64,000 bases of DNA from Trichostrongylus colubriformis (taxonomy: Eukaryota; Nematoda; Chromadorea; Rhabditida; Trichostrongylidae). The stretch lies in assembly GCA_963978905.1 (NCBI GenBank), contig OZ022258.1, positions 57,582,591 through 57,646,590 of the forward strand, given 5' to 3'. The notes below the pieces were generated by a model. It was not told the origin of the DNA. It worked only from the letters and a program-made list of their open reading frames with translations, and ran no database searches. The stretch's first letter is position 1; every line of letters starts with the position of its first letter. The position numbers and the translations under genes were made by a program. This document shows, piece by piece, positions 4,930 to 58,410 of this stretch.

Positions 4930-5875
4930 TTCTTCACATGATCAGAGCTGTAACGCCTGGGGATTTCGAGGATAAGCGCCGAAAAGAGAAAAACTTCGCG
5001 TTGCTTGGCGTGCGGCATGCGACGGGATTCGTGCTAGCTAAGGTGTTGGGTCCCAAATCAATTACCGTGCCCTCCTTCTAGGTTCGGGATACCGTAGCCG
5101 TCTAGAGCCCGCCTTAAAGGCACATTCGACGCTCGCTGATGGGTGGAGTACAGCTGACTCTCCATTGGTTGTCGGCGGCTGGGGGGCGGTCTCTCCACGT
5201 CCTATTGCCTGCAGTGCGGCGTGGTCGATCCGCCCCTAATGCCCGACAATCAATGGAGAGTCAACTGTTACTCCACCCATCAGCGAGTGCGGAATGGACC
5301 TTTAATACGTCACTACAGCTAGCACCCCGCGTCGCATGCCGTGTGCCACAGCGTGAACTTCCTGTCCTAAAAGGTCTCATCAGGGTTATCAGTAGTGGCT
5401 CAGTGGAATTTTCTCGCATCTCCCAATAGTCCCAAGTAAATAAGTAAGTTCTACGCTTCCCCACCAATCTAAGCCCAATGACTCCCATGCCTATGTTTTG
5501 TGCTGAAATGTGGTGCAACAGCGACCGTTTACAGATATGTCAGTGACAACTACCCTGTCTCACGGCCACAGCACTACTAACCGAGCCGGGCTACGGTAGG
5601 TTCATATACGCTCAAATATTGCCTTTTCTAAGCCTACCGTGCTTGACAGCTTTCTAACCGCAATCACACCTACTAATTTGTGGATCAAGACACTCGAATT
5701 GGGTCACAGCGCTCAAAAAAGTGCCTCACTGCTTCCGCTGTGAAGTGGTGCAGCCTGAAGGGTGTGACGGCTGCGACCTCATGCAATCTGTGACCCATTT
5801 CGAATTTCCTGACCTACACCCCTAACTTATTTATTATTGTGAGCGGCTTATTATCTGTGAAGTTTCAGTGTTTCT
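4930..5875. repeat. Duplicated segment D1 (partner at 9480-10250)
   Basis: Long stretches match 9480-10250 in the same orientation, for example the run through CACGGCCACAGCACTACTAA near 5562 and 9957 and the following block to CTGACCTACACC. No gene was found in it. The copy differs from its partner by the inserted element at 5131-5290. Together with units A, B and C it shows that the first 16 kb was built by segmental duplication. Confidence 0.75.
5131..5290. repeat. Nested fold-back element inside D1
   Basis: The left arm GCTCGCTGATGGGTGGAGTA is matched by the right arm TACTCCACCCATCAGCGAGT, with the match continuing inward through TGACTCTCCATTG and CAATGGAGAGTCA. The partner segment near 9690 lacks it, so it probably inserted after the duplication. 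About 160 bp, no open frame. Confidence 0.7.
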
Positions 5876-7543
5876 AGTGACGATCGACCAGATGTGGTGA
5901 TGACGGGCACCCGACGTCTGAGGTCTACGCGATAAAATTCGCCTTCAATCTCCGTCGAGATTCTCCTTTACTCATGATCTGCACCTCTGCTTCACCTGTA
6001 TACACTTACCTTTCCAAGTATCTTGGCGATATGCCGAACATCCATCTACTCCAAATCCTTTTCTGCTGTAACCCAATCGCACATACCCTAACAGTGTTCC
6101 CATCGCAGCGTTTTCGCTGCTGATCGGTGGATGATGGTCCCGCTGTGATGTTTGTAAAGGACCGTCGTGGTCCAAAAATATATCCGCTCAAATTCAGCAT
6201 TATAACTGTATATGTATATTGTTCGACGTACGATTTAATGAATACTGAGTGAGATTTGTGTTTTCACGGCTGATATTATCAATATTACGGCATTCTTTGC
6301 TATATTGTCTCCTGACAATATTATCAGTCATACAAAACCTTGTTCTTTCGAACCGCTGACTGAAAAGAGAATGCCTGCGGTATTAGAAGAAATGCGACTG
6401 AAAGCTTTATGAAGAATATGCCTTGGTGAGCGGTGCAGGGGAAGCCGATGCGTCATCGCCAACGGGACGCGGGCGACATTTTGCGATGGCGGCGGAGAAG
6501 CCGCGCGGAATAACGCCGCATCGGCCCTCTCTGAACCACACCATTGTGATTAAGTTTGCCATAGTTGGCAGGACGTTTTTGAAATCTCAACAGCTGTGGG
6601 TTGATGAATAGGCTGTCATAAAGGCTTTCAACTTCCTTTTAGTGTTAACTTGTCTTGCCAATTACATGCGCGTAAAATCGATAATTACGCGAGTGCATCT
6701 GAGATATCTGAAATGTGGAAGATAATGAGATGGAGAGTTATGTCCTACCAATTGAGCCAAGCTCACACTTGACCACGTGTGGTGATGGTGAGCAGGACAT
6801 GTATACGTCGGTTGGATCAGGCGTTTTGCCCACGATATCTGGAGCTCGCATTCAAAGACCTTATCATTTGTCTCCAGTGCCTTTCAATGAAGTTCTAAGG
6901 AGGACCAGCGAAGTGCACGAGACACTTGCGTACTTTCTATCTCTATTTGACCTTGTCCTTTGAAGTGCAAGTTGAATTACGCTGATAAAGGAGCTTTCCG
7001 AAAATAATCGGACCATCTGTGTCATACGACCAGTGAGTAAAGTAAACTCAAGAAACATGTTTTCCGGCACATTTGGACTACTTTTTCAGCATAAAACATA
7101 CTTGATTGCACTCTATTGTGTGTGGTGTCACTTCTTTGCTACTATCTCCTTGACATTTTCTTAATTTTTCAAGTCGTCATCTGACCTTAAAACCCGTCAT
7201 CTCCTGGTTTTTGGGTGAATTTATGTTAGCAGTGGGATAGGTTTGTCATGTGGGTGGTGTTTGTACGGTGCGACGAATTTGTGGCCTCTTGGTCGACACA
7301 GAACTTGCTATCCTCCAACAAGCTCCGCACACCTTTTCACCCAGGAATTGATTGACGTGCTATAAGCTCAGACCGTTCAGGCGATAGGCGTGGTTTGTAT
7401 TATGGGAGGGTGTAATTCTGTTGTTTATACCGCACAACGGAAAATAGGGCTTTTTGTTCGCCGTAGAGAACTTGCTAATCACCAACAACCCCGCACAATA
7501 TTAGAGCTTACTTAAGAAGTGCTAAGCTTATGCTGAGAAGACA

Positions 7544-7601
7544 CCTGCAAATACTGGATGGTGATAAGATTCTGATATCTCATCCCATCCAGTACTGCAG
7601 G
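7544..7601 (+). promoter_or_regulatory. Palindrome and candidate trans-splice acceptor before peptide gene A
   Basis: CCTGCAAATACTGGATGG and CCATCCAGTACTGCAGG form a near-perfect hairpin about 29 bases before the ATG at 7630. Its right arm ends in CTGCAG, a possible spliced-leader acceptor giving a 29-base 5' UTR. The intact palindrome also lies upstream of gene B; gene C keeps only the inner part and the right arm. Function (trans-splicing, promoter or neither) is inference. Confidence 0.45.
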
Positions 7602-7629
7602 CGTGATAAGAGAGTAAGGTTCATTAGAC

Positions 7630-7981
7630 ATGAAATCGTTCCTTGTACTGCTTGCGGTATGTGCCATTATTAGTGATTGCGCCATATGGCGTAGATCAGC
7701 ACCATGGAGGGATTCAGGCGAGTTTCCAAAAAGTTTTTTGTGAATTTAACAATTTAACAATGATTTATTAGGCATAAGACATTTTAAATCTGTTTCTGTC
7801 TAGATGATCAAGAGAACAATGTGTACCCAAGTGATTTTCAGAAGTCACTTTTTCGAAAAGGGTAATTTTTTGGCGCGATGGATGCTAGAATAGATGGTAC
7901 AGTTGAATTTCTGAAATTTCCAGCTCCCCATGTACCAGAATTTGTCCAACTCCACATGACTGTCATATGGAATGCACATGA
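7630..7981 (+). CDS. Small secreted four-cysteine peptide precursor, copy A
   Basis: Three exons: 7630-7717, 7804-7861 and 7924-7981, with coding lengths 88, 58 and 58 and 67 residues in total. Intron 1 is GC-AG (donor TCAG|GCGAGT, acceptor CTGTCTAG); intron 2 is GT-AG (donor GTAATT, acceptor TTTCCAG). Residues 1-18 are a typical signal peptide (MKSF followed by a hydrophobic core). Residues 19-48 are a polar pro-region with RR at 21-22 and RK at 47-48. The C-terminal 19 residues carry C52, C56, C62 and C66, spacing C-x3-C-x5-C-x3-C, with CPTP and CHMEC shared by all copies. The most likely product is a secreted disulfide-stabilised peptide released at the dibasic site. The CX3C...CX3C spacing recalls helical hairpinin-type antimicrobial or channel-acting peptides, but that is only a pattern resemblance. 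Copies B and C have identical exon phases and lengths. Confidence 0.8.
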
Positions 7982-8062
7982 TGGATGTAGCACGTTTTTG
8001 CTGTACGAAACCTACACGGGCCGCTGAATCCGTCGAATGGTTCACTATGCTTTTTTTAGTTT

Positions 8063-8068
8063 AATAAA
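8063..8068 (+). terminator. AATAAA poly(A) signal of peptide gene A
   Basis: AATAAA lies 82 bases after the stop codon of peptide gene A. The same signal follows at the matching place in copies B (10996-11001, minus) and C (14030-14035). Confidence 0.65.
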
Positions 8069-8174
8069 GAGAGAAAAGAAAATATAAAAAGGATTGCTGT
8101 CTGTTCAGAGCGTAACTCTGCAAAGTTTGCATCTTTCCTTTGAACTGAAGATGAAAAATCAGAAACACTTCTAC

Positions 8175-8432
8175 GGCGCTATCGCTGGGGAGGATAGCGC
8201 AACCTGTAAAAAGTTGCATATCTAACAAAAGCATGTTGTAGGAATCTTGAAGGGCTCAATCCGCCCACTTCGCCGTATATCTTTTTGCCTGAGCATATTA
8301 CTCTACTTATGTTAGTGGAGGAAAGATGGCCGCGTTCATACTTCGCGCGCCGGTGGCGGTGTCAGTGCGCAAAGTATGAACGCGGCCGAAATGTCCATAA
8401 TGGGTATGCCCCACTCTCATTGCGATAGCACC
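8175..8432. repeat. MITE family 1 copy in unit A, with 7-bp target duplication
   Basis: Starts GGCGCTATCGC, ends GCGATAGCACC, and is flanked by CTTCTAC at 8168-8174 and 8433-8439. The same duplication can be read at the unit B and unit C copies, so one insertion predates the amplification of the block. A second hairpin element (8328-8387) is nested inside. Confidence 0.75.
8328..8387. repeat. Hairpin element family 2 (GGCCGCGTTCATACTT)
   Basis: GGCCGCGTTCATACTTCGCG and CGCAAAGTATGAACGCGGCC are terminal inverted repeats around a short GC-rich loop. Further copies are at about 10623-10738, 14288-14408, 26700-26763 and 60008-60164, with core sequence differing in length and composition. Non-coding, probably a very short MITE. 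Confidence 0.7.
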
Positions 8433-9359
8433 CTTCTACTTGGTGGTGAGAATGTCGGCAATGAAAAGCATTCGTAGGCAGAGATTGCAATCGAGTTATT
8501 CGCCGAGGCTTTGAAACCGTACGAGACTCAGCCCAGCAACTGAGTGAGACCTGAAGGAATGGAATTTGCTGTTTGATTGTAGTCGAAATGAAAGTAAACT
8601 GCGAGAGGAACCGATGCGACGTAGGTGCCGAGAGTAGAGCAATGCAAGTCGCATATTTTATTTTTGCACCCTACCCAAATAGTGATATCCCTTCCACTGA
8701 AAATATGGCTTCCTGTTCGATATCTTCAGGAATTGTCCAGAGTTGGCGAATCGAGCAATTACATAGGCGATCAGGCAATCACGTGAAAAGGATCAGATGA
8801 GTTTCGATCGAACGAAAGGGATGAGATGCGTATCGACCAAAACTTGATACGCCTGGTCTTCTGACACGCATGTGCGCTCGCCAACTGTAAACACTACTTT
8901 ATGAAGAACAGTGACTCGCTCAACTGTCTTGGATAAGGATATGGAATCGATCTGAAGACCGTGTAAATGATACCGGTGCCTTTATAGCTGCTTCACCTCA
9001 CTGATACAGACGTACCAAACAAAATAAGAAACCCTATAAACATTCCAAAAAACACTTGATGCTCATATGCTCAATTCACTCGATACTTTTTTCTCATTGT
9101 ATTCGAGCCACCCGGTTAGATCACTGCCCACTGAAAGCCGTTTCACGCTGATGGTCAGCCGCCAGTGCCAACACCAGGAACTCTCTCTCTCGAACTTGTC
9201 ACTTAATCACTAATATACTTGCTACTGATGTTTAGTTCGCCAGGGAAGCGTAACAGTCCCAATTCACACTCGCAGTGAACTCCCGGGAGCACAGCTGCTC
9301 TTTTCACACTCATGAAGACCTCTTCAACCACAACTGGACGCTCTTGATGACGTCCCTAC

Positions 9360-9480
9360 ATCCCTTTCTTAGGGCTCCACGTGGTCGCTTCCCTTGCGTT
9401 TCAAACTCCAGTGCTCCCCTTGAGGGATGATTCTCTGGTGCTCTCAGTACGTGTCCATACCATCGCAGCCATTGCTCTCT
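9360..9480 (-). mobile_element. RTE-type retrotransposon 3' fragment in unit A
   Basis: The minus strand gives broken reading frames that match, block for block, the fragment at 15590-15990 in unit C, where the reverse-transcriptase C-terminal tail is recognisable. Too short and frameshifted to name by itself. Confidence 0.4.
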
Positions 9481-10250
9481 CAACTTCTGTCTTCACTATG
9501 TCTTGTTCACATGATCGGAACTGTGACGGCTGGGAATATCAAGGGCGTGTGCCAGAAAGGCAAAAAGTTCGCGTTGCTCGGCGTGCGGCATGCGATCGTA
9601 TTCGTGCAAGCTTGGGTCGCCTAGTTGGGTCCCAAATCGATTGCCGTGTCCTCGTTTAGGTTCGGTATACTGTAGCGGTCTAGAGCCCGCCTTAATACGG
9701 CAACTACAGCTACACTTACAACTAGCACCCCGCGTCGCATGCCGGGTGCCACAGCGTAAGCTTTCTGTCCAAATGGGCCTTATACGGGATATCAACAGTG
9801 GCCCAGTAGAATTTTCTCGCATCTCCTGATAGTCCTAAGTAAATAAGTGAGTTCTGCGCTTCTCCGAGCCCAACGACTCCCTGCCTATGTTGTGTGCTGA
9901 AATGTGGTGCAACAGCGACCGTTACAGATATGTCAGTGACAACTACCCTGTCTCACGGCCACAGCACTACTAACCGAGCCGGGCTACGGTAGGTTCATAT
10001 ACGCTCAAATGCTGCCTTTTCTAAGCCTACCGTGCTTGAAAGCTTTCTGACCTCAATCACACCTGCTAATTTGTGGGTGTGGGTCAAAACACTCGAGTAG
10101 GGTCACAGCGTTCAAAAAGTGCCTCACTGCTTCCGCTGCGGATTCATGGCGTTTGCAAGGTGTGACGGCAGCGAGCTCCTGCAACCTGACCCAATTCGAA
10201 CGTCCTGACCTACACCTCTGACATTTATTGTGATCGGTTTACTACCTGTG
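9480..10250. repeat. Duplicated segment D2 (partner at 4930-5875)
   Basis: Same-orientation match to D1. It lacks the fold-back element found in D1 at 5131-5290. It ends where inverted unit B begins. No gene seen. Confidence 0.7.
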
Positions 10251-10545
10251 AAGACCCCCTCATTGCGATAGTACCGAGCCATATTTTGAGTGGGATGAAA
10301 CATAACATCACACTGCTCTACTCTCGGCACCGACGTCGCATCGGTTCCTCTCGCGGTTTACTTTTATTTCAACTACAATCAACTAGCAAATTTCATTCTC
10401 TCAGGTCTCACTTGACTGCCCAGTTCGTAGAGACATGGAAAACACTGAGTCTCGTACGGCTTCGAGGTCTCGACGAATAACTCGATTGCAATCTCTGCTT
10501 ACGAATGCTTTTCATTGCCGACATTCTCACCACCACTAGTAGAAC

Positions 10546-10885
10546 GGTGCTATCGCAATGAGAGGGGGCATCCCATTATGGACATTATGTTCACCAAAGC
10601 TTGGAAGGGAAAAGTAAACCCTTCGACCACGTTCATACTTTGCGCACCGACGCCGGCAATTTCACGTCGTCGCTGCCAGTGCTCGAGTCAAATTGCAGCA
10701 GCCGCTGGTGGCGGCAAGCGCAAATTATGAACGCGGCCTTCTTCCGTCCACTAAGTGGAGTTATATGTTAAGCAAAAAATATACGACCAAGTGTGCGAAT
10801 TGACCCCTTCAAGATCTCTCTAAGATGCTTTTACTGGATGTGCAACTTTTTATAGGATGCGCCCCCTCTCCACTGTGATAGCACC
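10546..10885. repeat. MITE family 1 copy in unit B
   Basis: Starts GGTGCTATCGCAATG and ends with a degenerate GTGATAGCACC. Flanks GTAGAAC and GTAGAAG are the reverse complement of the CTTCTAC target duplication in unit A. Contains the nested family 2 hairpin at about 10623-10738. Confidence 0.7.
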
Positions 10886-11083
10886 GTAGAAGTATTTCTG
10901 TTTTTTCATATTCAATTCAAGTACATAAAAGATGCAAACTATGCAGAGTTACGCTCTGAACAGACAGCAATCTTTTTTATATTTTCTTTTCTCTCTTTAT
11001 TAGACAAAAAAAACACAGCAAGCCATTCGACAGAGATCAGCGGCCCGTGTGAGTTCCTTACAGCAAAAACGTGCCATCGTCCA

Positions 11084-11443
11084 TCATGTGCATTCCATAT
11101 GACAGTCATTCGGAGTTGGACAAATCATGACACATGGGGAGCTGGAAATTTGAGAAATTCAACTGTGCCGTTTATCCTAGCATCCATCGCGCCAAAACCT
11201 TTCTTGACCTTTTTTCAAGGGATGACTTTTGAGGATCGCCCGGGTTCACATTGTTCTCCTGATCATCTAGACAGAAACAATGATTCAAAATGTCTTATGC
11301 CTATGATTTCATAGTTAAATTGTTGAATTCACAAAAAATCTTTTGGTAAACTCGCCTGAATCCCTTGATGGTATGGACCTACGCCATATGGCACAATCAC
11401 TTATAATGGCACAAATCGCAAGCAGTACGACGAACGATTTCAT
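11084..11443 (-). CDS. Small secreted four-cysteine peptide precursor, copy B
   Basis: Minus-strand exons 11443-11356, 11266-11209 and 11141-11084 (88, 58 and 58 bases, 67 residues). Intron 1 is GC-AG (GCGAGT), intron 2 uses donor GTCAAG and acceptor TTTCCAG. The signal peptide and the four cysteines at 52, 56, 62 and 66 are as in copy A. Unlike A and C there is no dibasic pair just before the cysteine segment: residues 46-48 read L-E-K. A different or absent processing step is therefore likely. If intron 2 were retained the frame would run to a stop at 11172, giving a 60-residue form without the cysteine segment. An AATAAA signal lies at 10996-11001 on this strand. Confidence 0.75.
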
Positions 11444-11471
11444 GTTTAATGAACCCTACTCTCTTATCACG

Positions 11472-11530
11472 CCTGCAAATACTGGATGGTGATAAGATAT
11501 CGAATTTTATCACCATCCAGTGTTTGCAGG
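11472..11530 (-). promoter_or_regulatory. Palindrome and candidate trans-splice acceptor before peptide gene B
   Basis: The CCTGCAAATACTGGATGG hairpin is repeated here on the minus strand, ending in ATTTGCAG, a good nematode acceptor, with the exon starting at 11472, 29 bases before the ATG. Confidence 0.45.
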
Positions 11531-12200
11531 TGTCTTCTCAGCATATGCTTAGCACCCTCTCGAGTAAGCTGTAATATCGTGCAGGGTCCTTGGAGAATAG
11601 CGCGTTCTCTACGGCGAGCAAAAGGTCCCATTTTCCGTTGGGCGGTATAAATATCAGAATTACACCCTCCCATAATACAAACCGAGCCTATCTCCTGAAC
11701 AGTGTGAGCACATAGCCATCAACCGAACTCTGAGTAAAGAGGGGTGCTGAGTTTGCTGGAGAATAGCAAGCTTTCTCTGGTCGGCTAAAGACCACAGTTT
11801 CATTACACTGTACTAACACCTCCCACATGACAAATCCTGCCCACTGCTAACATAAACGCACACAAAAACTACTAGAGACGGGTTTTGATGTCAGATGACG
11901 ACTTGAAAAATGAGGAAAGAGTCAAAAGATTGTAGCAAAGAAGTAACTCCAGACACAATAGAGTGCTATCAAGTCTGTTTTATGCTGACGAAGTAGTCCG
12001 AATGGGCCGGAAAATATATTTTTTTTTGAATTAGTTTACTCACTGGTCGTACAACATAGATGGTCCGATTACTTTCTAAAAGCTCTCGCATTTATTCTGA
12101 TACAGCTAGAAATTTCTTTTCACTTAGCGGTTCGAAAGAACAAGGCTTTCTATGACTGATAATATTGTTAGGAGATAATACTATAGCAAAGACTGCCGTA

Positions 12201-12246
12201 ATATTGATAACATTGGCCGCGAATACACAAGTAATGTCATCAATAT
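12201..12246. repeat. Head-to-head junction of units B and C
   Basis: ATATTGATAACATT (12201-12214) and AATGTCATCAATAT (12233-12246) are the innermost parts of inverted arms that extend about 2 kb each way. The spacer 12215-12232 is 18 bases and unique. This is an inverted-duplication breakpoint. Confidence 0.75.
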
Positions 12247-13522
12247 TACGTCAGTCTTTGCTATATTATCTCCTAACAATGTTATCAGGCATAAAAAACC
12301 TTGTTTTTTCGAACCGATGGCTGGAAAAAAGAATTCCTGCTGTATCAGAAAAAATGCGACTGAAAAATTTATGAAAAATAAGCTTTGGTGAGCGGTGCAG
12401 GGGGAGCAGATGCGCCGTCGCCAACGGGACGCGGACGGCATTTTGCGATGGCGGCGGAGAAGCCGCGCGTAATAACGCCGCATCGGCCCTCTCTGAACCA
12501 CACCATTGTGATTAAGTTTGCCATAGCTGGCAGGACGTTTTTGAGATTACCGTAGCTGTGGGTTGATGAATAGGCTGTTATAAGGGCTCCCGACTTCTTT
12601 TCAGTGTTTACTTGCCTTGCCAATTACATGCGCGTAAAGTCGATAATTGTGCGGGTGCATCTGAGAAATCTCTGAAATGTGGAAAGCAAGACCATTTCGC
12701 TAGAAGTTAATTAGTATTATGAGATGGAGAGATTTGCCCTATCAATTAGCCAAGCTCACACTTGACCACGTGTGGTGATGGTGAGCAGGACATGTATACG
12801 TCGGTTGGATTGGGCGTTTTGCTCACGATATGTGGAGCACACATTTGGCGACCCTATCATCTGTTGCCAACACCTTTTAAGGAAGTTCTTAGGAAGGACC
12901 AGCGAAGTGCACGAGACACTTGCGTACTTTCTATCTCTATTTGACCCTGTTCGTTAAGGTGTAAGTTGAATTACGCTGATGAAGGAGCTTTCGAAAGTAA
13001 TCGGACCAATCGCGTCATACGACCATTGAGCAAATTAGTTTGAAAAATATATTTTCCGGCACATTCGGACTACTTTGTCAGATTGAAACAGACTTGATGG
13101 CACTCTATTGTGTCTGGACTCACTTCCTTGCTACAATGTTCTTGACCCTTTTTTTCATTTTTCAAGTCGTCTTCTGGGATCAAAACCCGTCTTTTTCAGT
13201 GGTTTTTGTGTGCATTTATGTGAGCAGTGGGCAGGATTCGGGGTGGTGTTTGTACGGTGCAATGAAACTGTCGTCTTTTGTTGGACACAGAGAACTTGTT
13301 ATCCTTCAACAAACTACGCACACCTCTTTAATCATAATTCGAACGATATGCTATGTGCTCACACTGTTCAAGCGATAGGCGTGGTTTGTATTATGGGCGG
13401 GTGTAATTCTGTTATTTATACCGTCCAACGGAAAATGGGACCTTCTATTCACCGTATAGAGCTTGCTATTCTCCAAAAATCCCGCACGATATCAGAGCTT
13501 ACTTGAGAAGGTGCTACGCTTA

Positions 13523-13563
13523 TGATAAGATTCTGATATCTTATCACCATCCAGCATTTGCAG
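13523..13563 (+). promoter_or_regulatory. Partial palindrome and candidate trans-splice acceptor before peptide gene C
   Basis: The inner palindrome GATAAGATTCTGATATCTTATC and the right arm ending ATTTGCAG are kept; the outer left arm is gone. The acceptor leaves a 29-base 5' UTR (13564-13592) before the ATG at 13593. Confidence 0.45.
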
Positions 13564-13592
13564 GCGTGATAAGAGAGAAAGGTTCATTCAAC

Positions 13593-13941
13593 ATGAAATC
13601 GTTCGTCGTACTGCTTGCGATTTGTGTCATTATCAGTGATTGCGCCATATGGCGTAGGTCCGTACCCTCGACAAATTCAGGCAAGTTTTCCAAAAGATTT
13701 TTGTGTTTATAACAATTTAACGATGCACTCATTGGCAAGTCTAAAATCGAATGTCCTGTCTAGATGATCAGCAGAACAATGTGAACCCGAGCGATCCTCA
13801 GAAGTCATCCCGTCGAAAAAGGTAATTTTTTGGCGCGATGGATGCTAGAATAGATGGCACAGTTGAATTTCTGAAATTTCCAGCGCCCCATGTATCAGAA
13901 TTTGTCCAACTCCGAATCGTTGTCATATGGAATGCATGTGA
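13593..13941 (+). CDS. Small secreted four-cysteine peptide precursor, copy C
   Basis: Exons 13593-13680, 13764-13821 and 13884-13941 (88, 58 and 58 bases, 67 residues). The first intron starts AG|GCAAGT, the classical strong GC donor, and ends CTGTCTAG; the second runs GTAATT to TTTCCAG. Residues 1-18 are a signal peptide; the pro-region ends R46-R47-K48, a strong proprotein-convertase site. The C-terminal segment has C52, C56, C62 and C66 with the same CPTP and CHMEC blocks. Against copy A, the last exon changes residues 50, 53, 60, 61 and 67 and keeps all cysteines. An AATAAA signal follows at 14030-14035. Confidence 0.8.
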
Positions 13942-14139
13942 TGGACAGGAGCACTTTTTTGCTGTAAGGAACGTACACGGGCCGCTGATCTCTCTGTCAA
14001 ATGGCTCACTGTGTTTTTTTTATTAGTTTAATAAAGAGATAAAAGAAAGTATAAAAAGGTTCGCTGTCTGTTCAAAGCCAAACTCTGCATAGTTTGCAGT
14101 TTTTCCTCGAATTTAAGAAGAAAAAACTAACACTTCTAC

Positions 14140-14476
14140 GGCGCTATCGCAATGGGGAGGGGGCGCATCTTATAAAAAGTTGCCCATCTAACGAAAGCAT
14201 CTCGAAGGGATCTTGGAGGGGTCAATCCGCACATTTGAGCGTATGTTTTTTGCCTAAGCATATTACTCTACGTAGTGGAGGAAAGAGGGCCGCGTTCATA
14301 CTTCACGCGCCGACGCCGCCACCGGCGGCGACTTCGGCAATTTGACGCCGGCACTGTAAGCGACGGCGTCAATTTGTCGGCGTCGGTGCGCCAAGTATGA
14401 ACGGGACCACTTTTCCCTACTAGGCTTTGGTAAAAGAAGGTCCATAGTGGGATGCTCCTCTCATTGCAACAGTATT
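14140..14476. repeat. MITE family 1 copy in unit C
   Basis: Starts GGCGCTATCGCAATGGGG. The right terminus is mutated (CATTGCAACAGTATT). Flanks CTTCTAC (14133-14139) and GTTCTAC (14477-14483) are the inherited target duplication. Contains the family 2 hairpin at 14288-14408. Confidence 0.65.
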
Positions 14477-15589
14477 GTTCTACTATCGGTGGTGAGAATG
14501 TTGGCAGCGAAAAGCATTCGTAAGCAGAGATTGCAATCGAGTTATTCGCCGAGGCTTTGGAGCCATACAGTCTCAGCAAGTGTTTTCTATGTCTCCACGA
14601 TTTAGGCAGCCAAGTGAGACCTGAGAAAATGGAATTTGCTGGTTGATTGTAGTTGAAATGAAAGTAACCGACGAGAGGAACCGATGCGACGTCGGTGCCG
14701 AGAGTAGAGCGATTTTGTTCTTGCACCCCACCCAAATGGTGATATCCCTTACACTGAAAATACGGCTACCCTTTCGGTATCATTGTCCAGAGTTGGCTTC
14801 CAGCAACTACGCGACCAGAAAATCACGTGAAAAGGATTAGATGAGTATCGATCAGACGAAAGGGATAACATGCGTATCGATCGAGTTTTGATACGCCTGA
14901 TCTCCTGAAACGCATGTGCGTTCGCCAACTGTGAACACTGCCATATGGAGAACAACGACTTCGCTAAACTGTCGCGGCAAAGAAAATGGAATCGATTCAA
15001 AGACCGTGCAAGTGATACCGCTGCCTTTTATAGCTGCTTCATCATCACTGATACACACGTGCCGAACGAAATTAGAAACCCTATGAGCATTCCAACAAGA
15101 TTAGAACTCATTTGATACTTTTTCGCACTGTATTCAAGCCACCCGGTTGGATCAGTGTTTAACTGAAGGGCGTTACACGCTGATGGTCTTCCGCAAGTAC
15201 CAACACCAGGAATTTTCTCGAACTTGTCACTAAATCACTGATATCCATGTCACGGATGTTTAGTGCTCCAGGTAAGCGTAGTAGTTCCATTTCACACTCG
15301 TAGTGAACTCCCGGGAACGCAACTGCTCTTTTCGCACGCATAAAGACCACTTCAACCACAACTGTCCCTGGCGGGCAAATAGATTTTCTTCTGTTGCACT
15401 GGTTCTCATGTTTCATACATCTGCTGCCTACATTCATATCTTCCACTCATGAATAGCAGTATCCCCAAATTTGGATTTGCACAGGAATCGAGATGCCATC
15501 TATAGGCTGAAATGTTTCGAATGTATTGTTACACCCTGACATATCCAACGATGTGCAGTACCCGTCTTGCTATTGCTATTCGGTATGTG

Positions 15590-27852: not shown

Positions 27853-30800
27853 ATGGTGCCATTGCTGCCGTTTTATTTGGTATCACTCACGCTGGGACTC
27901 TCTTTGGCATGCATATTAACTCTATTCTTCCCATCATGCCCTACCATCATACCTGCACTGACAACCTATGGTGTTTCAGCTCTTTATCTCAGGGATAAGA
28001 TTCAGTTTATACGGGCGATTTCTGTACCAAAAAAGTTTGTATTTTCTTTTTGATTGAGTCACTTTTACAGATGATGGCTTTATTTCAGGTGGTTTTGGCA
28101 CTTCTATCTGTTAGGATCGTTTTGGGCTGCATCATGGCTGCTCTTCTGTGGTGCTGTTTCGTATGACATGACAGCCCCTACGGACTCCTTGAAAAAGTTT
28201 CTTCGTCTTTTCACTCCAATAAAACCGCAACGTGGGTCGAATTTGCTTGCTACATTTTACTTGGTTCGGATTCTACTTTTGCTTGGCGATATTGAGAAAT
28301 ACGAGTGTCCTTGATTTTTTTCAGACAACTGGTCCACTACACTACTTGCTTCGGGTCTTGTTCTCTTCCATGTTGTGCGAAGACTTTGGGAGTCTGTAGG
28401 TTTCTAACCTATCACTCTTATGATGATTGTTGAAGTCTTTTTTTTTTGTTTTGTTTTTGTTTTGTTTTGTTTTGTTATATCTCAGTTTTTAGCTATGCAT
28501 TTCTGTTTACTCGGACACTACGATGAATTTATTTCATTATGTGGTAGGACTTATTCATTACACTATACTTCCACTCACTATCGTATGTGAATCGAAAGGC
28601 ATTGCCGACAGCAGATACGGTAAGAAGATACTAATTTTATCTGCAACCGGCTGCTAATCTGCCACCATGAACAAGACCGTTGTGGTAGCCCACATCAAGG
28701 ACAGATTTTGATCGAAATTTTGATACTATTAGATTTGTTGGAACTATCCGGCTATTACAACCTCAGTGGGGGTCGATTGGGGCAAAAAAATTTTTTTGCT
28801 AAAACTTTGCCTACAGGGGTAATTGAGGCCCCTGATCACGAATGTCACATTGGTTTTTAACGTTGGCGCCATTTTGGTGCAAAATGGCATAGCGCCAACG
28901 TTCAAAACCAATGTGATATTCGTGATCAGGGGCCTCAATTACTCCTGTAGGCAAAGTTTTAGCAAAAAAAATTTTTTTGCCCCAATCGACCCCCACTGGG
29001 GTTGTAATAGCCGAATAGTTCCGATTTGTTCTGATTAATGCAAAAGCAGCAGCATGTCTGAAAACGGCAGGAAACGGCTCCGCTTGTGAAAGGAGACGGC
29101 TGACTCGATCTTACTAAAGGAGCCTAGTTTATGGATGGTTATAGGTCTGGTATTTACTACGTCTGCGATATCACCTTCTCAGTGGTTTGGAGTGGCGCTC
29201 TTCCTTTTTTGTAATCGAGAACAGCACTCCATTTCCAGGGATATAGCTGCACTGAGGAAAGCACCAGATGGTTAGTTAGTTTCGTATTTCACTATTTATT
29301 ACTCCATATCATGTTTCTCTACAGCAATGCTGTTTCGATAGGTTCAGGACTTATTCACAATTACGCTCATGGAATTTGTTATGGAGGCTGGTTTGATTAC
29401 GTGTCATGCCCTCACTTTCTATTCGAAATCGGCATATATCTCTCACTTTGGATGGTACTTCCAGGCGCCTATACTTTCAAGGTTTGTTTTTCACTTCGTT
29501 GAAAATTGGTACTGTTTTCTTAGAGTGAACTCTTCCAGCGCTTTCCATGCATCTTTCCAATCGGTACCCCATTTGCACTAACTGCCTTCCCAGTCTTCAT
29601 CCTCCCTAGCATGAGGCGGACCTCTCCATCCGTCCAAGAAAAGATTGGTCCAGCCGTGGCCTCACTTTCTGGGTTTTCGTTACGGGGAAACTATTCATTT
29701 AGAAGCCCATCGAAGTATTTCTGCCATCTCCTTTGCTTCCTCGGGATTACACCGGCACTGCATTTCTCGAGTGTGGCTTTGGCCAGCCTGAAGACGATTT
29801 TCTGCCTCCTGTTCTTTAACTTCTCGTACAAGGCATCCATTTCCGTGTGCTTGGCTTTGACTATGGTCATGACGAGCCTCTTGCAACTTCTAATGTGACG
29901 AGGTCTTCTGGGCTCCGCGTTTTATGTCAGGGTTTCTATGTTTCTTTCCGTTTCGCTGAACCTCCTCGTTCCAGAACCACGCCGCTGCCTTTCCTCTGAA
30001 TCCACCTCGAGTTCACCCAGTGTTTCTTTCGCGCATCGCAGGATGACCTTTAAGGCCCTGTTTCTGGTTTATAGGGGTCTAGAAGACCAGCCCATACTGG
30101 TCCTTTTTAGGGTCATCCCTCTCCATTATGTGTAGATTCCACCATCGTATCCTATGCTCAGTTTTTACCTTTGGTTTCTTGGGAAGCTCTATGACAACGT
30201 CCACTGGGAGAGGCCTGGATAGCCGATTCCTCACCAGGTAATACCAGGTAGTACCTATGTTCTTCATACTTTTGAGGAACGGTTTCCTCACGAGCATATG
30301 GTCTATTCCCGTCTGCCTTCGACCGCTGCTGTAGGTTATTTTCTGAGGTCCCCTTTTGCAAAGAGTACTAAGATAGCCAGGTCATGATTTGTAGTCAAGT
30401 CAATGAAGGTAGTCATTTTGCGGATTTGCCCTGATCTTCATCGAGGCTCAGATAGAACTTGTCTTTTACGTTTTCGGCGCAGCCAGCTCGAGGTGCGTAA
30501 ACTCCTCCGTGTCTATCTTTACGGCCATGGTCGTCGATCCTGTCCATTGAAGAGACACAGTCCCCAGAAGACTACTACGGCTGGGGCTACGCCGTTTCGT
30601 TTGGTGTCTTCTCCGCAGTGGAAGGGTTTGATTTCATCACCGAGTTCCTTAGCAGCCCCTTTCCACTATGTTCCCTGGAGGCATGGGACTTGGATACTCC
30701 TGCGTTTCATTAGGTCAGCTACCTCTATGAACTTGCCAGAGCATTAAGAGTTCCGATTCGAACATACTTCTTTGGCCGAGGTGGTTCACCCCTTGGCAGT

Positions 30801-35500: not shown

Positions 35501-38322
35501 ACCCATCCCTTTCATATTCGTACTATGTGTCTTACTGCACACCCTAGACAATACCGTGACTGATTCTGTCCTCCCCCTCCTATCTGTTCATGGTCTAACC
35601 CTCTCGCTGGTTTGAGTACGTAGATGAATACACTCCAAGGTGCGAAAGATGTCAGCGGGTACAGTAAAGTGTCAAGTGTGGATTATGAAAATACATTTGA
35701 AATATTTGTTTAGTGCTAATATAGTAAGAGGGGTCAACTCTGTTGAGCCTTGAACTTTGACATGCTCTTACAAGTTTACTGTCATTAACAAGTCCCCAAA
35801 TTTATCACGCCAATAAATTTATCATGCCATTTCTTGAAACAACGCATTCTACCACGTGTCCCCCCCCCATTCATTAAAGTGGCTTCGTTTTTTGACTGGC
35901 TTCCTTGGTGCTGTGTCGAAGTGCCAGTTATAGTGAAAACCAATTGTGTCTTCTGAAAACTGTGTTGCTTGAGTTGAAAAAGGGATAGGGAAGATGCTGG
36001 GGCGGTATTCAACGTCAGATATTAACTTTAGCGCAATTTTGATTTTTTGGAAAAAGAAAAGAAACGACGAACAGCAAAAAAATCTAACAGCGATTGAATT
36101 TATCGGCTTGAAAGCGACAATTCCACCAAAAACGTGTTCGAGAAAAAATTGGCTTTGAAAAAGTGCGGACAACTCACCTTCTTGAGTGCCATTTTACATT
36201 TTTCGATCTTTCGTGGGCTGAACACAGAGGTGCTCTCGGCTTGCTCACGGACACACGACTCCACTTCCGCATTCCTCTGAAACGACGCTAGTCATGAATC
36301 GCTTCTTGCGTCATTGTCTAAAGCGGAAGCCGCTGGTTTTGAGAAAAGCGTGAATTCCTAAAAAAACACAATATCTAGGAACTTTTAGGGCTACGTAACA
36401 GTAACATTCAGAAGCAGCTTTCGCGAGAACCGAGGTGAATCAATACCCGTGGGAGTTGACTAGGTGCCAAGTGAACGGTGGTTTGACTGCGAGACGCTTT
36501 TGTTTCTACTAGGATGCAGAGAATTTTTGGGACTTTTTGCCTCGGCTCATTTTTTTTTGCACCGAAAGCTAGACTCAGAGAACAAGTGGTCATTTGTGTT
36601 TATTTATATCCAATTTTCAAGAAACAGCTGATATTTGGAGAAGATCTTTTCGAAGGTAGATTCTTCTATCGGAAGAAAAATGGGGTATAACTGTGAAATC
36701 AGCCTACTGCGGCTTACAATGCCTCATCCCTTCGTTGGAGTCCAAACTGTACCCGAATGAGTAATCGAAATTTACGTTGAGAAATCATCATTTTTCGAGA
36801 GGATAGAGACAGCAAAATTCAAATGTACTGTTCAACTTCAGAGTTCTCTTTGCCTACCATATTCATAGAAAAGGTTGCGGAAACTTGTAGAAAATTTCGG
36901 AACAAAGTGGCGAAAATTAGACTACAGCCTGGTATAATTTGAAAAGATCGAGAACCAGATTCTTAGCCTCTTTGGTCTTTCGTTCCAGAAATTGTGCAGC
37001 AGAGCCAGCACTCATCGATATTTCTGAGGGGTTCCCAGCGAGTCACATCAGACACCTACGAACTGCTGTTAGAAAAATGAGCACGGGGAGACTTCGGGGT
37101 ACACAACACTTTCTGCAGGCGGACTATCTGACCGCCCTACCACTCCGTTTTCGTGCGTCTAACCGTTCGCAGCGACTGTTTTTGATGAAGTGTGGTGGCT
37201 CTACTTCTTCCCCCTGTCCCTCTATGCTACACAACATCTGACTGATTCTCTAATCAACGGATTGAATTGCTAAAAAATTGGGTACCTGGTCGTAGAGCGC
37301 TTGCAGTTGGGTGTGCAGCTCAGCAGCACCTGCACAACGTTTTCTGCCGTTTTGAACGATTGCTGTGGTGTTCTCTTGGAGACATTCGGCCGACTTCTCA
37401 TTAGCTTTTGCCAAACAATTGGCGTACTCCTCGCAGAACAACGGCTGAAAATTCAAGCCGTGATATTGAATGTGATCTTCTTGCGTCATCTCATTAGAGT
37501 TTTTATATAATAGTATGTTGTCTTTAGGTGGATGATTACACCAGCGCACACTACAGAAACATTCAGCGTAATGAATAAATAAAAGATAAAGGACAAAGTT
37601 GTTGACGATAATCAATCTCTTCTGTGGGATGCGCCGCGCATTATATTTCCATTGAGAATCGTGGTGGCGAATGCGACTTGGCCTATACAATGTGTTGCCG
37701 AGGCCAGCCGATGTACAAGTCAGTGCTTTTAATCCTGTCAGACAGTATGGTACCAATTCACCTACCCCGGCAGGACGGAAGGCTTGAATGGCTTTGCGGG
37801 CGTTGACGTGGGATTTGATCATGAGAGTGGGGTGCGCGCCACCTGTCACTACTCCACTTCCGCCAATCACTTTCTTTGCAGTTTTTCCTTCTACTAGTCT
37901 TTGGCAAAACCCGCATAACTTTTCCGATACACAAAAAAATTGCAGATGTTCGGGGGTAGGAATTAGGCCGTTTCTCTTCACAACTTTACATCTGAACGAT
38001 ATCACAATCAAATGATGTTACGTCATTCGTTGAGGAACGTTAATGTTCAACATGGAACCTGTTGCCCCCCCCCCCATCCTTCTCAAATAAAATAGCCGTA
38101 GTAATTATAATGGTCACAAGACTCCATGGGAAGCAGGGTGCATGGCACATACTGAGAAGACGATCGACAGCTAACACTAATTCCTCGCTGTCTCTCGCTG
38201 AATTTAGGGTAGCCCTTGGAGTTTGATCCAGCAAAGCAGTAACTCACCACATCTGTCTCATTTCGCTTTGCTACACATTGAGCCAAACCGATGCAAAACA
38301 AAACGACTATCAATCGGTTCAT
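32523..38322 (-). CDS. Secreted Cys-rich, lysine-rich coiled-coil protein (family unknown)
   Basis: Eight minus-strand exons join without a phase break to 292 residues: 38322-38248, 37444-37286, 36276-36178, 34030-33879, 33814-33721, 32969-32892, 32818-32627 and 32552-32523. Most acceptors are strong (GAATTTTCAG, CGTTTCAG, CTTACAG, TTGTTTCAG, TCTTCAG, CTGCACAG); the exon 6/7 boundary (donor CAT|GTCCCA, acceptor TTTAAG) is weakest. Residues 1-18 form a signal peptide (MNRLIVVLFCIGLAQC). Thirteen cysteines follow at about 29, 35, 46, 62, 86, 105, 139, 150, 156, 157, 163, 187 and 201. N-glycosylation sequons are NET near 22 and NTT near 51. From about 112 the chain is very basic and helical; it ends with six glutamines (226-231), an acidic DDKDAKAKDDD stretch and a predicted coiled coil. 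I do not recognise the family. Extracellular location is inferred from the signal peptide and disulfide potential. Confidence 0.78.
33200..33615. repeat. Inverted-repeat element in intron 5 of the coiled-coil gene
   Basis: GGCACTCGAACTGGGTCA at the left and TGATCCAGTTCGAGTGCC at the right are inverted matches about 400 bp apart. The right arm by chance translates to a segment resembling ribosomal protein S14; see rejected items. Confidence 0.5.
34831..34925. repeat. Fold-back in intron 3 of the coiled-coil gene
   Basis: CCTTCCCCTCCTAGGCTTAG and CTAAGCCTAGGAAGGGGAAG are inverted. The motif CCTAGGCTTAG recalls the inner hairpin of MITE family 1. Confidence 0.5.
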
Positions 38323-38324
38323 AC

Positions 38325-38333
38325 CTGCAAATA
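38325..38333 (-). promoter_or_regulatory. Probable spliced-leader acceptor of the coiled-coil gene
   Basis: On the minus strand TATTTGCAG is followed by GT and then the ATG at 38322, so the acceptor is two bases before the start codon and no upstream exon is needed. Confidence 0.6.
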
Positions 38334-41300
38334 TATTCACTTCAGTATCCAGAGTTCAAAATTCGTTGAATCCCAAGAACATCTCATAAACAACGAGAGA
38401 AATCATTACAAATATAACTATTACTCAGTGGAGAAAAATGAGTTGGATTGAGAAATGTTTTATTCGATCAATGTTGCATGTTTCTCAAAAAACAATATGA
38501 GAATCAGTAGAGGTGGTTGGATGAAACAGCTGTGCGTATATGAAAACTGCTGTGCTTGAGAAAACAATAATTTTTATGTCGTCATGACTAGCGTTTTGGG
38601 GACAATGTGCACTTTTGAGATGTGTTCTTACAAAATCGTGAAATTGCCAATCGTTTAGGATCTATCCCTTGACAGATATCAATGTCCAAAAGCGTTTTAT
38701 CGATAGGACACCGCAAATGGACGATCGACCGACCATGAGGAACAAAGGTAAGCACTTTAAATCCGTCAGGATTCATTTAGCAGTAGATCGGTTTGCCGGC
38801 ACCAGCTCATTTGTGAGTGAGCTCAGCTTTGTTACAGACATTTATTTTCCATTTATTTATTTAGTCAATTGTTATTCTTTATTTATTTAATTATTTACAT
38901 TTGAGTCCACTAGCCGCATTGAAATCAAAAACAGAAGCAGTACATGACAATCTATGCCCTAAGATCAATTAAAACAGTCGACCCCGTACATCCTGTCAAG
39001 CCGTGATAAATTCAAAAAAAAAACGAAGGAATTTTTATAAAAAAAGCAGGTGTCTTATAAAAAATAGAGCACGTAGTGTGCTAACAAAACATGATTTTCT
39101 GGATGATAGAGATGATATGGAGTCTAGCAATGCCTACTGTAAACTTCTGTTCCATAAATTTTTCTGTAAGACGCAGAAAGAGTGTGGAAGAAGCAGGAGG
39201 GGGGGGGGATGGGGGGGCGGATAGCGAGTGCTTCTTTAATGCCTGGTGTTCTGAATTAGCAGAGGCAGCGCAACAGACACGAGTCATAAAGTAGTCTCAG
39301 TGATTCTTGGCCATGCCCAGTCCGCTCTCTCCCACGGACGAAGTGACATTCTCAAATTTCACCTATACGGCTAAGAACTGGCATGGGACCCAGAAGGATC
39401 ACAGAGGGACTGGAGCAAGATGTCAGTTACCTTCAAACCTACAAAAGTGAAAGACGACGTGTTGAAGCTTGTGAGTGGGAATGAAACGATCAAACAATAT
39501 AGGAAGCAGGTCTTCGACCTAGTCGAAAGGCATGGCTCAAACCAATGCCTGTATGTGTGGTTTTCGGAGGCTCTGACTAACAGTAATTGTAGAGCGTCCG
39601 GAGAAAAGCCCCCCTTGCTCTGAAATCACCGAGCCGCGCCAGAAAATCCAAAGCGACGGGATGACTGTTGACTGACTTAGACTGCCTTATAGGTTATGCA
39701 TAGAAGGCCAGAAACTGACAGCTGTCCATCGAGAACGTGAGGCTAAGGCAAATATACAATTTATGGGCCGCCGAAGGAAACAAGTCGCTGAGAGGACACT
39801 TCGGGAGTTTTTGCGCTGCCCTACATTTTGTATCGCTTCCATTCACATTTAGAGAATGATATCCCCGGATGGAAATGGCCGAAAATCTACAGATGGTTGA
39901 CATTTTGGTGTGAGCCGCGTATTCGCTCTTATGTGAGAGTTTTGGGTAGCTGAGACTTCAGCAAAATCAAAAAGTGAAACAAATCATTTCAAAATCAAAG
40001 CTCAGCATGCGTTCAGAGCCACTCATGGGTTTAAGCAAATAAAAGTGGAAAGACAGGGGTAAGCTGGGTAATGTTTCAGCGATACTCGAAAGTTCATGCT
40101 ATTAATTCCCACTTGTGCCGAACGTACCGCAGAAAAAAGAACCATTTCGGCACGTCTGGTCACACGCATACTTCCAGTTTTCAAGAGGACGGCCCAGTAA
40201 TTAAAGTAAACAAATACGAGTTCTTTACGAAACGCAGGTGTTCGTCAGCAGCAGTGACGGAATCAAAAGTTTGAAATTCCACGGCTGTTTTTTATTCGTC
40301 GGAAAGAGCGCTTGATGAAAAGCTGTAATGCCAGTTGAAGGACGAATCCACTAAGCTTACCGCCGCTCCTTGAGTTATTCGCTAGTGATTGGCAGACAAA
40401 GACCTACAGAAAAAGTACACGATTCGCACGAAATCTGGATTGAATGGGAAGCCATTAAAGCGAGAAAGAGGACGTGAACAGCTAAAAGGACTCGAATGAG
40501 ACAGCAAGGCTTTGAGAGGAAAAGACGGCAGGCATCCAGAAGACAAGATGAGTAAGTCCATCTCCCAATGTGCTTCATACCGCTGAGTTCGTCCAATATT
40601 CAGTAATACAAGCATGAGTTATTTGGCGTTGACCAATCCCTGGGGATGCGCCATGCATTCTACTCACGTTCTTAATTGCGGCATGGAAATGCGACTCGTC
40701 CTACCATGGCTTGCGGATGCTAGTCGAGAAAGTATAGTGTTTCCATTTTCATGGATGCGTATGGTAGGGGTTTACTGAGTCGCAGAAATGGAAGGCTTGG
40801 TGGGCGTAGGCTAGCATTAATGGGGAGGAGCGGGACTAATCGCGGGACCATGGCAGCTACTTACCATCACCGGCTTTCACCTCAGTGTGGAAGAATCTCC
40901 GGGAACAATGGTCCACAATTTTTCCCATAACCAGTCTGGTCATTAATTTGCGGATAGGTACCAGATAATGTAAAGCAGTAAATAAGCTCATGAATTGGAA
41001 GGCGGTCCCCCGATTGTCCCGAAATTCGTCAGAAGAGCCAATAGCTCACTCGAAAGGTGATGGGGTAACCATATGTACTTGATGAAAAGGGTAAGAGTAG
41101 CAGCAAGGTTGCTTATAAGCACGTCCTGAAAAAAGATCGTGACATAAGAATCGTAAGATTCTTTCGCCACGAAAGTTGAATGAAGCTTAAAAGGAATAGT
41201 GGAAAAATATTCGCTAGAAAGTCCCATAGGACGATGTGATTAGCAGAATTCTCATTAGGGAACTGACAAACATTGTCAGCGTGGGGAAAACAACGGCTAG

Positions 41301-45256: not shown

Positions 45257-45505
45257 TGATATGTAGGATGTGTACCTTAATGTCAGGATGCCGCACTGCG
45301 GAATGTCGCAAGCGAAGCAATGCGGACGAGCTAAATTGTTGGGTCCCGAAGCGATTAGAAGTCAACTGCGTATCGCACTCCTAGCATTACGTTGTAATCG
45401 TTTTGAGACCCAACTACCGCGACGCGCATAGCTCGCACACACTGTGTCGCACGCCGCTCGCCATCGTGCGGCATCCTGACATTAGGGTACATATCCTGAT
45501 ATGTA
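45257..45505. mobile_element. MITE family 3 copy with 9-bp target duplication
   Basis: The element 45266-45496 begins GGATGTGTACCTTAATGTCA and ends TGACATTAGGGTACATATCC. It is flanked by TGATATGTA at 45257-45265 and 45497-45505. A 9-bp duplication suggests Mutator-like (MULE) or Merlin-type transposition. The right duplication abuts the next element at 45506. Confidence 0.85.
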
Positions 45506-46011
45506 CAGTAGCGCTCAAAAGTCTTCGGCGAAATGGTCTTTCACCTGGGGTTTTTCACTTGTAACTTTTTTGCAACTGCACCGATCTGAGAGAAATTTTA
45601 GTATGTTGTACTTGGATACACTGCATACTTAATATACTATTTTGGCGCTCAACGGTATAGGTTACGCGGTTATATGAAATTTTTTGTATTTGGAGTGCCA
45701 TTGCTGTGCCGTCCCCCTGTGCCGCTGTCATCAAAAGTCGTGGTTTTTTAACAGAATATTAATGTTCTCTGAGGCTTGCTCTTTTTGTTTTTGTAAAGAA
45801 AGCCGTTCCCCTTGACCAAGCCTTTTACTTTTTTTGGGTGGTCTTGTAGTAAATTCTTGTAAAAAATCATGAAAAGAGTCAAGCGGCACTCAAGTAGAAG
45901 GAAATGTTAACAATAGGTTCAGGCATCACAGATTAAAATTTTGTCAAATTTGGTCAAGTAGAAAAAAAGTTATGACAAAAGAGTTTTGGCCGAAGACTTT
46001 TGAGCGCTACT
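45506..46011 (+). mobile_element. Tc1/mariner-type non-autonomous element, copy 1
   Basis: Starts CAGTAGCGCTCAAAAGTC and ends GACTTTTGAGCGCTACT, with TA at 45504-45505 and 46012-46013. 506 bp, no transposase. An inverted relative follows at 46018. Confidence 0.85.
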
Positions 46012-46017
46012 TATATA

Positions 46018-46527
46018 CAGTAGCGCTCAAAAGTATTCGGCCAAACCTTTTTTTTTTTGTCATAACTTTTCTCTACTTGACCAAATTTGACAAAATTTTG
46101 ATATGTGGTGCCTAAACCTATTGTTAACATTTCCTTCTACTTGAGTGCCGCTTGACTCTTTTTATGGTTTTTTACAAGAATTTACTACAAGACCACCCAA
46201 AAAAAGAAAAAGGCTCGGTCAAAAAACGGCTTTCTTCACAAAAACAAAACGAGCAAGCCTCAGAGAACATCAATATTTTGTAGAGAGACCACGACTTGTG
46301 ATGACAGCGGCACAGCGAGACGGCATAGGGATGGCACTCCGAAAACAAAAAAAAATTCATTCAACCACGTAACCTACACCGTTGAGCGCCAAAATAGTAT
46401 ATTTAGTATGCAGTGTCTCCAAGTACAACATACTAAAATTTCCCTTGAATCGGTCCAGTCGCAAAAACGTTACAAGAGAAAAACCCAAGTGAAAGACCAT
46501 TTGGCCGAATACTTTTGAGCGCTACTG
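46018..46527 (-). mobile_element. Tc1/mariner-type non-autonomous element, copy 2 (inverted)
   Basis: Starts CAGTAGCGCTCAAAAGTA, ends TACTTTTGAGCGCTACTG, with TA flanks. Aligns along its length with the reverse complement of copy 1, giving a 1.02-kb inverted repeat with only TATATA between. The plus-strand frame at 46145-46372 lies inside it and is not a gene. Confidence 0.85.
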
Positions 46528-46864
46528 TAGGTTACAAAAGAGCCATAAACATAGTTTCCTCTGCACCCGCTTTCGTCGCCGGAGCCAATACGTGCTCTGC
46601 TTCACTCAATGTCTCTCTTTCCGTGACAAGTAAGGAACACTTTCAAAAACGATAAGCCGCCCTAGAATAGCTAAAGATGTGACTGTTTCAAATGCTTGTC
46701 ACTTACAATATTATGGCTGAGAACTCGAGCGAAAAATATTGGGTGGGTTGTTTGAATGATTATTCGGGAGCGTTTCGATCATCACAATCAAAGTCTGCTT
46801 TCTATTCGGTAGTCATCAAAACGTCAATTTTCACTGCAGAAAAATGCAACAATAATAAGCCGCA

Positions 46865-58339: not shown

Positions 58340-58410
58340 TGCATCGGCCGGGAATCGAAGCCGGGCCGCCCGCGTGGCAGGCGGGAATTCTACCACTGAA
58401 CCACCGTGTC
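58340..58410 (-). tRNA. Degenerate tRNA-Gly(GCC), probably a pseudogene
   Basis: The minus strand gives TGGTTCAGTGGTAGAATTC (D arm), CGCCTGCCACGCGGG (anticodon arm, anticodon GCC at 58376-58378) and TTCGATTCCCGGCCGATGCA (T arm and acceptor 3' strand). The 5' acceptor strand is GACACGG instead of one pairing with CCGATGC, so three of seven acceptor pairs are lost. The T stem also has a G-to-C change before TTCGATT. These defects argue against function. Confidence 0.75.

Follow-up and report, generated by a model that had tools for sequence, protein, structure and literature searches.

The window analyzed here, a 64-kb stretch of the Trichostrongylus colubriformis genome (contig C5, positions 57582591-57646590; G+C content, 43.7%), contains a cluster of three small genes that are almost certainly real and whose products, each ending in a four-cysteine segment, are very likely secreted. 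The explanation that we favor, a protein-binding peptide secreted in the gut, has about an even chance of being correct when taken as a whole. Short, multi-exon peptide genes are easily overlooked by gene prediction, and if gut transcription and secretion of these three hold true, they would constitute an orphan peptide family that could be tested as binders or inhibitors and might be considered as a marker or for a vaccine. Otherwise, they offer a clear-cut case of duplicates under relaxed selection.

Gene models and selection on the coding sequence

Copy 1 lies at 7630-7981 (+), copy 2 at 11443-11084 (-), and copy 3 at 13593-13941 (+), with the following exons and downstream AATAAA elements:

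7630-7717 (+): copy 1 exon 1, 88 nt, encoding the signal peptide and the first part of the pro-region, GC donor after it
7804-7861 (+): copy 1 exon 2, 58 nt, pro-region
7924-7981 (+): copy 1 exon 3, 58 nt including the stop codon, four-cysteine part
8063-8068 (+): AATAAA, 81 bases 3' of the copy 1 stop codon
11356-11443 (-): copy 2 exon 1, GC donor after it
11209-11266 (-): copy 2 exon 2
11084-11141 (-): copy 2 exon 3
10996-11001 (-): AATAAA, 82 bases 3' of the copy 2 stop codon
13593-13680 (+): copy 3 exon 1, GC donor after it
13764-13821 (+): copy 3 exon 2
13884-13941 (+): copy 3 exon 3
14030-14035 (+): AATAAA, 88 bases 3' of the copy 3 stop codon

A previous, sequence-only reading of this DNA had described exons of 88, 58, and 58 nt, a 67-residue product with a hydrophobic N-terminal segment (signal peptide), and a C-terminal C-x3-C-x5-C-x3-C arrangement, and all of these were recovered in each of the three copies. 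The two introns that it described also have the expected borders, with one correction: while intron 2 (62-67 nt) has a GT-AG border, intron 1 (83-89 nt) has a GC-AG border in all three copies, the donor being CAG/GCGAGT in two and CAG/GCAAGT in one. Pairwise identity among the proteins is 73-81%. Residues 21-22 are RR in every copy, and the cysteine part is preceded by FRK in copy 1, RRK in copy 3, and LEK in copy 2. Since this basic cleavage site is not conserved, being absent from copy 2, cleavage ahead of the cysteine part is uncertain.

A gene finder was applied to the ~1.3-kb three-way alignment of the copies, requiring ATG, donor, and acceptor in shared columns, a frame open in all three, three exons, and at least 60 residues. 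It returned two models, namely the one above and a variant with an earlier exon-2 donor. No conserved three-exon model of at least 60 residues was obtained from any of 300 column shuffles (0/300), which preserve the columns and not neighboring-base composition, and the reverse strand of the alignment likewise gave no model.

Selection on the peptide was then judged from the same three-way alignment. The minimum number of substitutions was 47 over 204 coding columns (23.0%) compared to 266 over 1029 ungapped non-coding columns (25.9%; Fisher p = 0.43), with exon 2, at 29%, exceeding the non-coding mean and the lowest value being that of intron 2 (11%). Since coding and non-coding substitution densities are equal, sequence identity provides no argument for selection, and in this respect the proposal that the gene was kept while the surrounding non-coding DNA diverged does not hold. 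It does hold for indels, of which the coding part has none compared to 29 events outside it (5.7 expected in the coding part; Poisson P = 0.003), and for amino-acid changes from the majority sequence, which number 24 against a mean of 33.4 under neutral simulation (P = 0.0009, 8000 simulations). Start, stop, and open frame were retained in a fraction of 0.059 of neutral simulations, all four cysteines in 0.092, and both in 0.006, although these values, and in part that for indels, are ascertained, the finding having been chosen for being open. Between copies, dS by NG86 was 0.22-0.41 and pairwise dN/dS was 0.34, 0.38, and 0.50; YN00 gave a dN/dS of 0.68 for copies 2 and 3, the sole pair with a value. 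Residues that vary among the copies amount to 3/17 in the signal peptide, 13/33 in the pro-region, and 5/17 in the cysteine part. We read selection on the peptide as real but relaxed, i.e., as moderate constraint. The earlier suggestion of purifying selection on a secreted, disulfide-bonded peptide is therefore sustained in the form of a moderately constrained family, with disulfide bonding graded as probable.

GATA-type sites in the proximal promoters

New in this analysis is the presence of two to three TGATAA-type sites within 70 bp of each ATG, some of them inside a palindrome. All three copies have TGATAA at -26 and again between -68 and -70, and TTATCA is present at -52 in copies 2 and 3 but not in copy 1:

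7562-7609 (+): proximal promoter of copy 1, with TGATAA at 7562-7567 (-68) and 7604-7609 (-26)
11464-11512 (-): proximal promoter of copy 2, with TGATAA at -69 and -26 and TTATCA at -52
13523-13572 (+): proximal promoter of copy 3, with TGATAA at -70 and -26 and TTATCA at -52
11472-11530 (-): palindrome in the copy 2 promoter, each arm with 23 paired bases, a single mismatch, loop of 11 nt
7544-7601 (+): copy 1 promoter palindrome, diverged

Across both strands of the 64-kb window there are 51 TGATAA/TTATCA sites, giving an expectation of 0.12 per 150 bp. At least two such sites fall in 1.6% of 150-bp windows, the class to which the two-site promoter of copy 1 belongs, and at least three fall in 0.38%, all of which overlap the copy 2 promoter, the copy 3 promoter, or 12140-12300, which lies inside another palindrome. 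The palindrome of copy 2 (DNA fold, -23.6 kcal/mol; z = -9.5) contains the -69 and -52 sites and excludes the -26 site, and that of copy 3 has no left arm. In the genome searched (a 331-Mb assembly of 52 contigs), the promoter palindrome was found at these three genes only. TGATAA is described as the ELT-2 site, over-represented in intestinal promoters of Caenorhabditis elegans (excerpts of PMC10411582), and the highest-ranking intestinal motif given for Ascaris corresponds to its complement (excerpts of PMC3916258). Because of these correspondences gut expression is the best guess, and judging from the promoter motifs the three genes are probably expressed in the intestine.

Predicted fold, proposed role, and competing explanations

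AlphaFold2 was run twice on the three sequences only, copy 2 heading the input in one run and copy 1 in the other. Both runs gave a helix at residues 2-22 across the signal peptide, a predicted local distance difference test score (pLDDT) below 50 over most of residues 23-49, and strands at 52-58 and 61-66 (block mean pLDDT, 77-83), with predicted template modeling scores (pTM) of 0.26 and 0.25. The models make it somewhat likely that the cysteine part is a beta-hairpin, in which, from the register of the strands, the disulfides would pair C52 with C66 and C56 with C62. The likeness to helical-hairpin peptides suggested from the sequence is thus unsupported, since both runs predict strands, albeit from three sequences and at low pTM. 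A PDB sequence search with copy 3 gave no match.

Comparison with known families yielded nothing above cut-off in Pfam or NCBIfam. The only sub-threshold matches, both in copies 2 and 3 and both outside the cysteine part, were to DUF3481 in Pfam (best E = 0.006; 16.8 bits vs. 28.5; residues 5-34) and to LpqB in NCBIfam (best E = 0.0017; 17 bits vs. 881; residues 3-45); copy 1 had no match in either. Nematode ABF peptides are, like these, small secreted cysteine peptides, but have more cysteines than the four in the secreted part here, for which no Pfam match above cut-off was obtained. These defensin-like peptides are reported from Ancylostoma duodenale among others (excerpts of PMC6780910). 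The cysteine motif given for the alpha-hairpinins of plants, C-x3-C-x4-20-C-x3-C (excerpts of PMC11591084), accommodates all three peptides, with x5 as the middle spacing. In contrast to the helix-loop-helix of alpha-hairpinins, however, the present peptides are predicted from the three sequences to form strands, have two prolines in the loop, and come from what appears to be an animal genome. Tachyplesins, polyphemusins, and gomesin, which are beta-hairpin peptides with two disulfides, share the two C-x3-C pairs and the position as a short C-terminal peptide of a secreted precursor, and the strands predicted here would be compatible with an antiparallel hairpin of that kind. Tachyplesin/gomesin-type cysteine spacing is C-x3-C-x4-C-x3-C, whereas the loop here is x5 in all three copies. 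The x4 spacing can also be read off a tachyplesin-type peptide quoted in PMC11728142. A further difference is charge, the C-terminal 19 residues having a net charge of -1, -2, and +1 in copies 1, 2, and 3, respectively, compared to the +6 or +7 stated for tachyplesins and polyphemusins in excerpts of PMC4410394. Direct sequence comparison with these peptides consisted of the PDB search with copy 3.

In the mechanism that we favor, each gene would be transcribed in intestinal cells, where an ELT-2-like GATA factor would bind the TGATAA sites, and the product would be secreted via its signal peptide. The polar linker would be disordered and possibly cut off, and the last 17 residues would form a beta-hairpin held by two disulfides, C52-C66 and C56-C62. 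A C-P-T-P turn and a C-H-M-E-C strand would form a constant scaffold, with residues 53, 54, 60, and 61 beside the turn varying, and the peptide, released to the gut lumen or into secretions, would bind a protein target of host, food, or microbes. Such a combination of fixed frame and variable face fits a protein-binding peptide rather than a membrane-lytic one, although we hold the lumenal protein-binding role itself only tentatively. The most specific version, a lineage-restricted, non-cationic, two-disulfide beta-hairpin family of a parasitic worm's gut, with a palindromic GATA promoter at these genes only and a constant frame that turns a diversifying face toward a protein of host or microbe, is rather doubtful.

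Several observations weigh against this proposal. The predicted structure is based on three sequences and has a low pTM, a fold search of solved structures with the copy 2 model returned one match only (E = 9.6), and the cysteine pattern does not itself fix the fold, since a spider peptide resembling tachyplesin, with almost the same pattern, is reported to be alpha-helical (excerpts of PMC11728142). Of the sites available to it, ELT-2 is stated to occupy only a minor share (excerpts of PMC10411582). The pairwise dN/dS values fall only slightly short of 1, the figures for frame, stop, and cysteines carry the ascertainment described above, the gene finder's donor and acceptor rules were drawn up once the model had already been recognized, and the database searches found no family, structure, or protein relative.

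The short exons and the failure to find database relatives would also be expected of a chance open frame with no gene behind it, but this is very improbable given the shuffles and reverse strand, neither of which yielded a model of at least 60 residues, and given a signal peptide, a promoter cluster, and an AATAAA each at its expected position. Neutral decay of the duplicates is harder to dismiss, yet still quite unlikely. One old gene could have been copied with its flanks and now be mostly neutral, the likeness among copies reflecting common descent only, and this would agree with the equal substitution densities (p = 0.43), flanks that are 78-84% alike, an intron 2 better kept than the exons, and the YN00 value of 0.68 for copies 2 and 3. 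On the other hand, the coding part is free of indels and stops, all cysteines and splice sites are kept in all three copies, and amino-acid changes are fewer than under neutrality (P = 0.0009).

The two functional alternatives are each unlikely, though less so than neutral decay. A gut antimicrobial family, i.e., a tachyplesin- or gomesin-like beta-hairpin controlling intestinal microbes, would account for the predicted hairpin with four cysteines placed for two disulfides, for the gut-type promoter, and for an arrangement of signal peptide, pro-region, and short C-terminal peptide that resembles the tachyplesin-type precursor (excerpts of PMC11728142); set against it are the charge and the x5 loop. 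Of the three functions previously suggested, host-directed, antimicrobial, and signaling, the near-zero charge disfavors the antimicrobial one in its membrane-lytic form. Alternatively, the product could be a signal within the worm, a hormone- or neuropeptide-like molecule cut from its precursor at basic residues. The signal peptide, the conserved RR at 21-22, and the FRK and RRK before the cysteine part of two copies are in keeping with this, whereas LEK replaces the second basic site in copy 2 and the promoter sites suggest gut, not neurons.

History of the cluster and other features of the window

The genes lie in a duplicated block whose aligned pieces are 78-84% identical across gene and flanks:

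6278-15364 (no strand): duplicated block, comprising the copy 1 unit (6278-9336), the inverted copy 2 unit (10311-12085), and the copy 3 unit (12239-15364)

The cluster arose by duplication of a gene-plus-flank unit, with inversion of the middle copy, and the dS values indicate that the three genes are old duplicates. A DNA search of the genome gave three matches, all within the cluster. Protein searches, which were run exon by exon and may miss distant relatives, gave seven matches with copy 1, all in these genes, and ten with copy 2, eight of them in these genes; the other two, on contig C7 (E = 0.37 and 9.9), look like chance. Intron 2 is the same at 61/62 bases in copies 1 and 3 (7862-7923 and 13822-13883), while the exons differ at 16-22%, perhaps as a result of gene conversion or hidden constraint. 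A 274-base near-palindrome (12086-12359; 80.6%) immediately follows the inverted copy 2 unit, whose last base is 12085, and runs into the copy 3 unit, which begins at 12239; it may have driven the rearrangement. A direct repeat (5314-5862 and 9717-10253; 85%) adjoins the gene units, and is in direct orientation although the neighboring copy 2 unit is inverted.

Elsewhere in the window there are self-inverse repeats at 45504-46529 (~1 kb, 88% identity) and 28740-29022 (91%). The segment 24219-24589, open in three frames with repeated units containing serine, tyrosine, and leucine, looks like a tandem repeat. Two open frames at 37250-38355 (-) have several cysteines, one of them with a signal-peptide-like start, and gave no Pfam match at E = 1. 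A tRNA gene at 58340-58410 (-) was the sole hit in the window to exceed the Rfam gathering score.

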